From positions 1 through 22,099 of the IMG/VR virus record IMGVR_UViG_3300027969_000453: a stretch of DNA of 22,099 nucleotides, one strand, 5' to 3'. Below the pieces are notes generated by a model. That model saw only the letters and a program-made list of their open reading frames with translations, had not been told where the DNA came from and did no database searches. Both the position numbers and the translations under genes were made by a program. The stretch comes from a virus. Shown here piece by piece: positions 6,765 through 10,303 of the stretch (position 1 is the stretch's first letter; every line of letters begins with the position of its first letter).

Positions 6765-6949
6765 TATGACCAAGGCTTTTCGTTTTCAGCCAATTCTTCA
6801 ACCTGAGGCCAAACATCGAGGTAATGTAACATTTCTGTTATGTTTTCATCGCCAATGTATGCGTATTCTATCTCTTGGTTGTAGCCGTACAGGTCAACTG
6901 AAGTGTTGCCAATATATACGCTGCAAATGTGATAACCGTCTTTTTCCAT
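6764..6949 (-). CDS. Hypothetical acidic protein, first gene of leftward accessory chain (61 aa)
   Basis: The product is acidic and Tyr-rich (MEKDGYHICSVYIGN, then EIEYAYIGDENITEML), with no membrane segment or known motif. The RBS AGGGGA is five bases before the ATG. It is the first gene after a 320-base non-coding gap, so any promoter for the chain to 5686 should lie in that gap. TATAAA-like AT-rich hexamers are present on the leftward strand around 6992-7055, but no convincing -35 partner was found. Confidence 0.65.
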   Translation of the reverse strand: MEKDGYHICSVYIGNTSVDLYGYNQEIEYAYIGDENITEMLHYLDVWPQVEELAENEKPWS

Positions 6950-7269
6950 GATTTTCCCCTTTAAAAATTCAGTTTCTTAAAGTTTCATGCACTTTTATAT
7001 AGGTGAAAACCCTAAGTGTTGTATTTATGCAAATGTATATAAGTATTTATATAAATTGGGCTGTATTTGGCAGTTGCTGACAATGGGCGAGAAAGCCGCA
7101 AAAGTACCCAATTACTGCATCCTACATTGACGGCTTAACGCCCAAAATAAGAATGGGCGGTTTATAAACCTTTAACTGGCAGAAAATGCACAGACCCGAA
7201 TAAGGTGAGGTGGCAGGACTCCGTGATGTATGGTTGTGCAAAGGGGATAGCACACCCACCACCTCTTGA
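6950..7269. other. 320-base intergenic region between exonuclease and accessory chain
   Basis: No gene is supported here. A 47-codon rightward frame (6987-7130) lacks a ribosome binding site. The left third (6950-7060) is very AT-rich and may hold the leftward promoter for the accessory genes. The right two thirds (7082-7265) are about 48 percent GC by my count and contain several nested inverted repeats, described separately. Confidence 0.7.
7082..7265. ncRNA. Candidate structured RNA or cis element, strand uncertain
   Basis: Inverted repeats seen: GGGCG 7085-7089 with CGCCC 7139-7143, enclosing AAGCCG 7093-7098 with CGGCTT 7131-7136 (offsets of three and two bases); GAGGTGG 7207-7213 with CCACCTC 7259-7265, enclosing TGTGC 7235-7239 with GCACA 7250-7254. 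The octamer AATGGGCG occurs twice (7082-7089 and 7152-7159), and either copy can pair with CGCCC, so two exclusive folds are possible. A perfect 12-base palindrome GGTTTATAAACC lies at 7159-7170. The region is GC-richer than its surroundings. The stems work on either strand. Leftward transcription from the exonuclease gene would enter it five bases after that gene's stop. No known RNA family is recognised. Confidence 0.4.
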
Positions 7270-9403: not shown

Positions 9404-9667
9404 ATGAAAAATAAATTTACCGCAGAACAAATGATTGAGCTACTTGGTGGGGCTAAAAAAGTGGCTATGAAAACCAATGTCACCGTACAAGCGGTATACC
9501 AATGGCGCAATAGCACCATTCCAGTTGATAAACTAATGATGTTGGCAGCATTGCTAGAAAAAGAATCTCATGGGCTTATTACACGCCAAGAAATGTTTCC
9601 AGAATGTTGGCATTGGATATGGCCTGAGCTTGTGCCAAAAAACAACGCTTTCATAGAAAGAATTTAG
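9404..9667 (+). CDS. Cro/YdaS-like helix-turn-helix repressor
   Basis: This is an 87-residue protein. Residues about 6-50 form a Cro/YdaS-type helix-turn-helix: AEQMIELLGGAKKVAMKTNVTVQAVYQWRN, where VTVQAVYQWRN is the recognition helix, followed by IPVDKLMMLAALL. The C-terminus carries FPECWHWIWPEL, an aromatic ending often seen in phage Cro-like proteins. It faces a divergent leftward operon across a palindrome-rich region, so it most likely represses one or both early promoters. No dimerisation or protease-sensitive domain is present, so it is Cro-like and not a full CI repressor. Confidence 0.85.
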   Translation: MKNKFTAEQMIELLGGAKKVAMKTNVTVQAVYQWRNSTIPVDKLMMLAALLEKESHGLITRQEMFPECWHWIWPELVPKNNAFIERI

Positions 9668-9675
9668 TGTAGAAT
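9648..9675 (+). promoter_or_regulatory. Possible promoter for the 9683-9967 RNA/leader
   Basis: CTTTCA (9648-9653) and TAGAAT (9670-9675) are separated by 16 bases. The -10-like element matches five of six consensus bases; the -35 match is weak. Transcription would begin near 9682, where the inverted-repeat-rich stretch begins. It is inside and just after the end of the repressor gene. Confidence 0.3.
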
Positions 9676-9682
9676 TCATATC

Positions 9683-9967
9683 CCTTGTGCTGGCGGCTCT
9701 AACGACATCGTAGCGGCATAAGGTTATAGCGTTACTAGTAGGGTAAGAGGCTGAAACAGCGCAATACAGGTGGCGAAATTAGTGCCTGTGCCTCGCAAGA
9801 CTGATGGGTAAGCGATTCCTCAATGGAAGAACTTTGAAGGCAACCTAGGTAGGCTAGGTTCGCTCAAACCTCTTGGAAGTTGTATTTTAACAACTAGGGA
9901 TAAATACTAGTGGACTATTACAAGACTATTGGGGAAACTACATTTACTCAATAACGAGTAAACATTT
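9683..9967 (+). ncRNA. Candidate structured RNA or long regulatory leader
   Basis: This is a 310-base gap with no supported gene but many possible helices in order: UUAC 9732-9735/GUAA 9743-9746; GAGGC 9747-9751/GCCUC 9790-9794 stacked on ACAGG 9766-9770/CCUGU 9785-9789; UUCC 9816-9819/GGAA 9825-9828; UUUGA 9833-9837/UCAAA 9864-9868 enclosing AACCUA 9842-9847/UAGGUU 9855-9860; AGUUGU 9878-9883/ACAACU 9890-9895; and a 7-bp hairpin UUUACUC 9943-9949/GAGUAAA 9956-9962. CCCUU at 9682-9686 could pair with the AAGGG Shine-Dalgarno (9968-9972) of the next gene. No tRNA, tmRNA, RNase P, group I or group II intron signature is recognised. Either a free RNA or a leader of the secreted-protein gene is possible. 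Confidence 0.45.
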
Positions 9968-9979
9968 AAGGGGATTTAA

Positions 9980-10303
9980 ATGAAAACTACAGTAAAAGAC
10001 TTTTTAGGCGCTTGTTTACTAGGTGCAGTATTAGGAGGTTTGTTTGCATATGCAATACCTTCTAAAGCTCAAACTGTACAACTAACTAACTCTGCTGGGT
10101 ACAATGTTGGCACAGTTCAAATAAACGGCAATACAGCACAGTTTGTAAACCCTATGGGCGTTACTACTCAAGTAGCTACTTTGTACCCAGGTCAAGTTGT
10201 TATTCAAACCCCAAGCGGTATAACAACTTCGGTGGTTGGTAACACAAGCTACACAGTACCGCCAAGCCCACCAACACCATCAAGCCCAAGGGTGCTGCAA
10301 TGA
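9980..10303 (+). CDS. Secreted or periplasmic small protein (107 aa)
   Basis: There is a clear Sec-type signal peptide: basic start (MKTTVK), hydrophobic core at about 8-25, then AIPSKA with probable cleavage after Ala30. The mature part is Thr/Val/Gln/Gly-rich with repeated beta-like phrases (GYNVGTVQING, then GVTTQVATLYPGQVV, then GITTSVVGNTSY) and a Pro/Ser tail (PPSPPTPSSP). AAGGGGA lies five bases before the ATG. It follows a 310-base structured gap and overlaps the next gene as ATGA. A secreted early phage protein could act in superinfection exclusion or envelope change, but no family is recognised. Confidence 0.7.
   Translation: MKTTVKDFLGACLLGAVLGGLFAYAIPSKAQTVQLTNSAGYNVGTVQINGNTAQFVNPMGVTTQVATLYPGQVVIQTPSGITTSVVGNTSYTVPPSPPTPSSPRVLQ

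Follow-up and report, generated by a model that had tools for sequence, protein, structure and literature searches.

A gene-free gap downstream of a Cro-like gene

The window analyzed here, a 22,099-nucleotide (nt) stretch of viral DNA from IMG/VR, carries a leftward recombination operon (Erf, exonuclease) and genes for a Cro-like repressor, a replication initiator, terminase, portal and lysis proteins, and we read it as belonging to a tailed, podovirus-like phage. As the earlier note had described, a gap without a gene lies between the stop of the Cro-like open reading frame (ORF) at 9667 and an ORF at 9980 that encodes a secreted protein of 107 amino acids. The RNA found in this gap (Table 1) begins 15 nt past the Cro-like stop and approximately 280 nt past the Cro-like start, and the secreted-protein ORF starts about 110 nt 3′ of it. 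Comparison with relatives placed the end of the conserved RNA near 9870, and the segment from 9870 to 9979 represents a poorly conserved leader of the next gene. The 7-bp hairpin previously drawn in this leader (TTTACTC-loop-GAGTAAA, at approximately 9943 to 9963, just 5′ of the ribosome-binding site of the 9980 ORF) is present, but its conservation does not extend beyond the nearest relatives. In L014, a different hairpin (TAACCAATTTTGGTTA) takes its place.

The gap does not contain a conserved translated frame. In the window, each of the three forward frames is interrupted by stops within the RNA core, any anchored forward frame is open in at most 8 of 65 homologues, and indels among these homologues are almost never multiples of three, which ruled out a coding region. 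The region is also neither a tRNA nor a tmRNA, as proposed before: ARAGORN found 0 such genes in the window.

Table 1. Coordinates of the RNA, its helices and the flanking features in the window
Feature	Position	Strand	Basis or remark
Cro-like repressor gene, directly 5′ of the RNA	9404..9667	+	phrog_35, phrog_409, Pfam P22_Cro
−10-like hexamer TAGAAT	9670..9675	+	Clade-specific, not kept family-wide
Complete structured RNA, ~190 nt	9683..9870	+	R1 match 9677-9871, conservation in relatives, alignment A2
Part covered by RF02932 (Betaproteobacteria-1)	9683..9809	+	cmscan, 84.6 bits, E value of 1.3e-14
P1 hairpin, 9683-9692 with 9714-9723	9683..9723	+	82.4% paired; 5 of 5 tested pairs changed on both sides
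P9 pseudoknot, P1 loop 9711-9713 with P2 loop 9735-9737	9711..9737	+	99.5% paired; 2 of 3 pairs compensatory; longer form also scored
P2, 9729-9733 with 9758-9762	9729..9762	+	91.6% paired; 4 of 5 pairs compensatory
P8 pseudoknot, P2 loop 9747-9751 with 9790-9794 (3′ of P3)	9747..9794	+	87.0% paired; 4 of 5 compensatory
P3, 9766-9771 with 9784-9789, loop GGCGAA...	9766..9789	+	93.1% paired; 3 of 3 variable pairs compensatory
P4 pseudoknot, P3 loop 9778-9783 with 9800-9805 (3′ of P8)	9778..9805	+	99.2% paired; 3 of 6 compensatory
P5a, 3′ domain; 3 bp in the window, as a rule 4-6 bp elsewhere	9810..9834	+	Helix-length test
P6 hairpin, 3′ domain, 9842-9848/9854-9860, conserved AGGCT at loop	9842..9860	+	78.8% paired; 4 of 7 compensatory
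Hairpin 5′ of the ribosome-binding site of the 9980 ORF	9943..9963	+	Clade-specific, outside the RNA family

The RNA belongs to Rfam family RF02932

The region had been regarded as an unrecognised structured RNA, and an Rfam covariance search, named beforehand as a possible refutation of that view, matched a known family. RF02932 scored 84.6 bits (gathering cut-off, 49.4 bits), and the match spans all 120 positions of the model, ending at GGGU (9809). It was the only family to reach its cut-off in the window, and cmscan returned no match there to any other RNA family. Because of this match, the RNA is not unrecognised, at least in its 5′ two thirds. From this match, the covariation described below and the number of copies in other phages, we regard it as virtually certain that the segment from 9683 to approximately 9870 specifies a structured noncoding RNA belonging to RF02932. 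Rfam classes the family as "Gene; sRNA," and we found no description of its function in the literature searched.

The RF02932 model takes in only about two thirds of the conserved RNA. The RNA described here and the Rfam family agree in sequence and in helices P1, P2 and P4, which in 65 sequences are 82 to 99% paired and show compensatory changes. In contrast, the Rfam consensus structure contains neither P3, P8 and P9 nor the 3′ continuation of about 60 nt (P5a, P6). Conservation and covariation persist past the Rfam end to approximately 9870, through a GGCTCC-type segment (P5a), an AAGG motif and P6.

Covariation supports three pseudoknots and a 3′ domain

The structure was assessed on an alignment of 65 representatives with less than 88% pairwise identity, made with MAFFT without structural guidance (A2), from which we built a covariance model of 189 positions (R1). 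Members of A2, including the window, match R1 by construction; the window, as one of the 65 source sequences, scored 129.6 bits at 9677 to 9871, and a search with R1 recovered all 65 members and the phage sequence MW202545. Over the six core helices (P1, P9, P2, P8, P3 and P4), 91.9% of the cells in A2 hold standard pairs, and both sides have changed in 435 cells compared with a mean of 134 after shuffling. The covariation score was 0.551, against 0.161 for shuffled alignments and 0.075 to 0.122 after the structure had been slid along one to three columns; when P6 was swapped in for P9, the score was 0.500 versus 0.08 to 0.11. Since the structures were named after inspecting the same sequences, they have an advantage over the slid versions in the number of cells paired, but this choice does not explain the number of compensatory changes. 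Covariation is the decisive evidence; the folding energy of the window sequence by itself departs only moderately from that of shuffled sequences (z = −2.4, with 5 of 200 shuffles reaching an equally low value).

The core thus comprises three pseudoknots, namely, P9, P8 and P3 crossed by P4, followed by the 3′ domain. In that domain, the longest P5a helix averages 4.6 bp over the 65 sequences compared with 3.4 bp (sd 0.1) for shuffled partners. The helices drawn previously from the window alone were largely right in the light of A2: the 11-base strand at 9784 to 9794 does have two partners (9766-9771 in P3 and 9747-9751 in P8), both covarying, and a stem-loop, P6, does lie inside the segment 9833 to 9868. 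An outer helix, P7 (GGGU with ACC), was dropped, as its partners vary in A2 without compensation. Altogether, the earlier observation was confirmed while its interpretation was half right: compensatory changes across 65 diverse homologues strongly support a structured RNA, but it belongs to a catalogued family, and a role as the leader of the secreted-protein gene is, as described below, not supported.

Copies in other phages

Exact-pattern scans of IMG/VR, together with the window and Acidovorax phage AP1, yielded at least 161 full-length copies. Of the records tested in three batches, 11 of 13, 9 of 26 and 45 of 50 exceeded the RF02932 cut-off. The copies in AP1 and in the metagenomic phage MW202545 were located with blastn using a divergent copy as the query, whereas the window RNA used as the query found no match among named phages and plasmids. 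The 55.7-kb genome of AP1, a phage of Paracidovorax oryzae, has a single copy (R1, 109 bits) in an unannotated gap 3′ of the primase gene. MW202545, whose sequence lies outside A2, carries one copy as well (R1, 125.6 bits, at L233:6953-7141); this copy is overlapped by two genes annotated as encoding hypothetical proteins (6795-7022 and 7016-7252), both of them probably spurious.

A divergent subfamily with an enlarged P2 loop occurs in phages of approximately 55 to 67 kb (L191, L194, L209, L212, L225 and L228, plus the fragment L167). It scored 47 to 55 bits with R1, and the two members scored with RF02932 reached 47 to 48 bits, just below the cut-off; other Rfam families gave only chance-level matches to divergent members. 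The copy at L189:1555-1699 is devoid of most of the 3′ domain, with about 45 nt absent between GGGG and CTGAGTC, and is either a natural variant or an assembly error. One contig of 44,384 bases holds two copies with the same score 35.2 kb apart (L190 and L204) and is possibly an over-long assembly of a circular genome of about 35 kb. In MW202674, an unannotated Cro-like gene (L097:4001-4213) is 49% identical to that of the window, and a hypothetical protein was called on the opposite strand; searches of this genome with RF02932 and R1 gave no match. The exact-pattern scan of bacterial genomes gave eight chance-like matches, outside the Betaproteobacteria judging by their titles, and RF02932 did not match the two of these genomes that were searched.

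The RNA recurs in early operons beside unrelated genes

Gene order places the RNA in the rightward early operon and shows that it is not tied to one gene. In one arrangement, a Cro-like gene is followed by the RNA (6 to 20 or approximately 150 nt further on) and then by replication genes. In the other, found in larger phages, the RNA follows ParB-like, helicase and primase genes, often within about 15 nt. Among 56 nearest upstream genes on the same strand, primases (about 18) were followed in number by Cro-like (about 10) and RusA (about 5) genes, and the downstream genes were a mixture encoding replication initiators, helicases, recombination proteins and methyltransferases. Where strand could be judged, from crude ORF calls, 41 of the 59 genes on the upstream side and 44 of the 52 on the downstream side shared the strand of the RNA.

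These neighborhoods bear on the earlier proposal that the RNA is the leader of the secreted-protein gene. A cis-regulatory leader or riboswitch would fit the next ORF, about 110 nt on, and the small clade-specific hairpin before its ribosome-binding site. However, the RNA recurs beside unrelated genes both upstream and downstream, and since there is no constant neighbor it is not a gene-specific leader; the family has no common downstream gene, in most loci neither a terminator nor a sequestering structure is associated with the core, and the conserved core stops well short of the ribosome-binding site. We consider a leader function improbable. Only slightly less improbable is an RNA acting at a replication origin as a primer precursor or regulator. 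It was suggested by the proximity to replication genes, and many contexts do adjoin genes for a primase, a helicase, a ParB-like protein or a replication initiator, but such genes belong to early operons anyway. Moreover, the cumulative GC skew reaches its minimum near 9 kb, where the divergent early promoters lie, and offers no specific pointer to the RNA.

Ends of the RNA

The −10-like hexamer TAGAAT pointed out previously does end seven bases 5′ of the first helix, but it is conserved only in the clade of the window, where TAGAAT, TATACT or TATAGT stands 11 to 13 nt 5′ of P1. No complete sigma-70 promoter was predicted for the RNA. At the other end, terminator-like sites were found 3′ of the RNA at 3 of 64 loci, the same number as at random positions, and a downstream U-tract at 5 of 65 loci (7.6 expected). 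On these grounds, we rejected an independent sRNA with a sigma-70 promoter and a terminator of its own.

Directly upstream of the RNA, a U-tract was present at 40 of 65 loci versus 7.6 expected, in some cases with a recognisable hairpin, and no explanation proposed here accounts for it well. A weak terminator-like element (e.g., AACCCCAAGGGGTTTTTC) abuts the 5′ end of the RNA in L142, L144, L146, L153, L165, L175, L193, L226 and others; elements of the AACCCCAAGGGGTTTTTC type are conserved and lie 10 to 40 nt 5′ of the RNA. A longer terminator-like element (AAGCCGTTACTCATGCA...TGCAGTAGTAACGGCTTTTT) extends from about 75 to 15 nt 5′ of the RNA in L169, L180, L188 and L199; judging by covariation apparent by eye, it may be a second structured RNA.

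Possible modes of action

Our leading but tentative reading is that the nascent RNA modifies the transcription complex in cis, by analogy with the put RNA of phage HK022. The RNA would form one segment of the rightward early transcript, which would run from a promoter before cro through cro and the RNA into the replication genes, and the segment would act as RNA and not as the leader of a single gene. Folding as it leaves RNA polymerase, it would alter that same transcription complex, which might, for example, become less prone to pause or terminate in the remainder of the early or middle operon. We favor such a nascent-transcript element because the RNA is without its own terminator, lies in the early operon and has no constant neighbor; both the early and replication genes around it and the chance-level frequency of terminator-like sites 3′ of it support cotranscription. 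Against put-like action, the upstream U-tract is not explained by it, and there is hardly any terminator to read through in the early operon of the window: between 9300 and 15300, we found one weak plus-strand terminator-like site downstream, fewer than in shuffled sequences. In addition, the RNA is unlike put in being about 190 nt long, knotted and present in a single copy, and some neighboring genes lie on the opposite strand.

We rank as nearly as likely as this cis-acting element an RNA that acts in trans. Such an RNA would be cut from the early transcript or outlast its decay, stabilised by its knotted fold, and would bind a host or phage protein in favor of infection, candidate partners being RNA polymerase, the ribosome, a nuclease or a defence protein. 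In its favor, phages of great diversity have retained the compact pseudoknotted fold, and Rfam classes the RNA as an sRNA gene. The placement shifts as well (after cro, after primase, before large replication genes), and because the position moves between operon contexts, linkage to a given gene would not be needed; the upstream U-tracts could cut the RNA off from the preceding transcript. However, neither a terminator of its own nor a family-wide promoter was found among the loci analyzed, so that processing would be required at both ends.

Mimicry of 16S rRNA, with the RNA serving as a decoy for a ribosomal protein or a ribosome factor, appears highly improbable. In 100 kb of Escherichia coli DNA (both strands), the best match to the family profile was 16S rRNA at positions 713 to 755, in both rRNA operons, with 6.2 bits versus 2.4 for the next match and at most 3.5 for 1,542-base shuffles. 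The E value in that search was only 0.33, however, R1 gave no 16S match at E values up to 10, and 16S rRNA is without the P4 partner strand. Furthermore, betaproteobacterial 16S rRNA differs from that of E. coli in part of this stretch, so the likely hosts match worse. The weak resemblance, between E. coli 16S 713-755 (L234) and profile positions 79 to 124 (GGTGGCGAAG ... CGAAGACTGACG), is probably a coincidence.

On a guarded estimate, the RNA may be widespread among phages as a modifier, in cis or in trans, of the host transcription complex early in infection; relying on a fold with three pseudoknots that differs from put, nut and every other phage RNA described, it would then constitute a new mechanistic class of phage regulatory RNA. 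RF02932, an orphan family named for a bacterial class, is now located in early operons of phages that are numerous and diverse and is extended by about 60 nt, with a secondary structure of three pseudoknots backed by covariation in 65 sequences. The large-scale phage association, which comes from the copies reported here, the 3′ domain, the pseudoknots, the early-operon placement and a named phage are thereby added to the catalogue entry, although the original description of the family may already report some of the structure or some link to phages. The entry becomes a directly testable object, with Acidovorax phage AP1 as the one named record with a stated host.

Comparison with known systems

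In the rightward early operon of phage lambda, cro is immediately followed by the nutR/tR1 region. The RNA described here occupies the same place, and many of its relatives have a U-tract there, but 5′ and not 3′ of the RNA. Lambda nut is a short boxA/boxB element that requires the N protein, whereas the present RNA is large and self-structured. The EAR element of the Bacillus eps operon is likewise an intra-operon structured RNA with a pseudoknot; the analogy is functional only, as host and operon are unrelated. GOLLD and ROOL are large structured RNAs of unknown function borne by phages and prophages; both are often found close to tRNA islands, and lengths above 800 nt are common for GOLLD (PMC12286853). 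Neither matched the window in cmscan, and the window has no tRNA genes.

The closest working analogue is, we infer, the put RNA of HK022, which renders RNA polymerase termination-resistant with no help from any phage protein (PMC9378689). It is approximately 70 nt long, forms two stem-loops with a triplex and occurs in two copies, putL and putR, both downstream of early promoters; putR lies about 270 nt past the start of PR (PMC9378689). The two RNAs are alike in being structured elements of an early transcript that need no dedicated protein, and in the window the distance is similar, about 280 nt after the cro start; in AP1, in contrast, the RNA follows primase. Unlike put, the RNA described here is about 190 nt long, combines three pseudoknots with a 3′ domain and is present once per genome; no sequence relation to put was found. 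While put acts through the beta′ zinc-binding domain of RNA polymerase, antitermination by the RNA of the window would be its counterpart by analogy.
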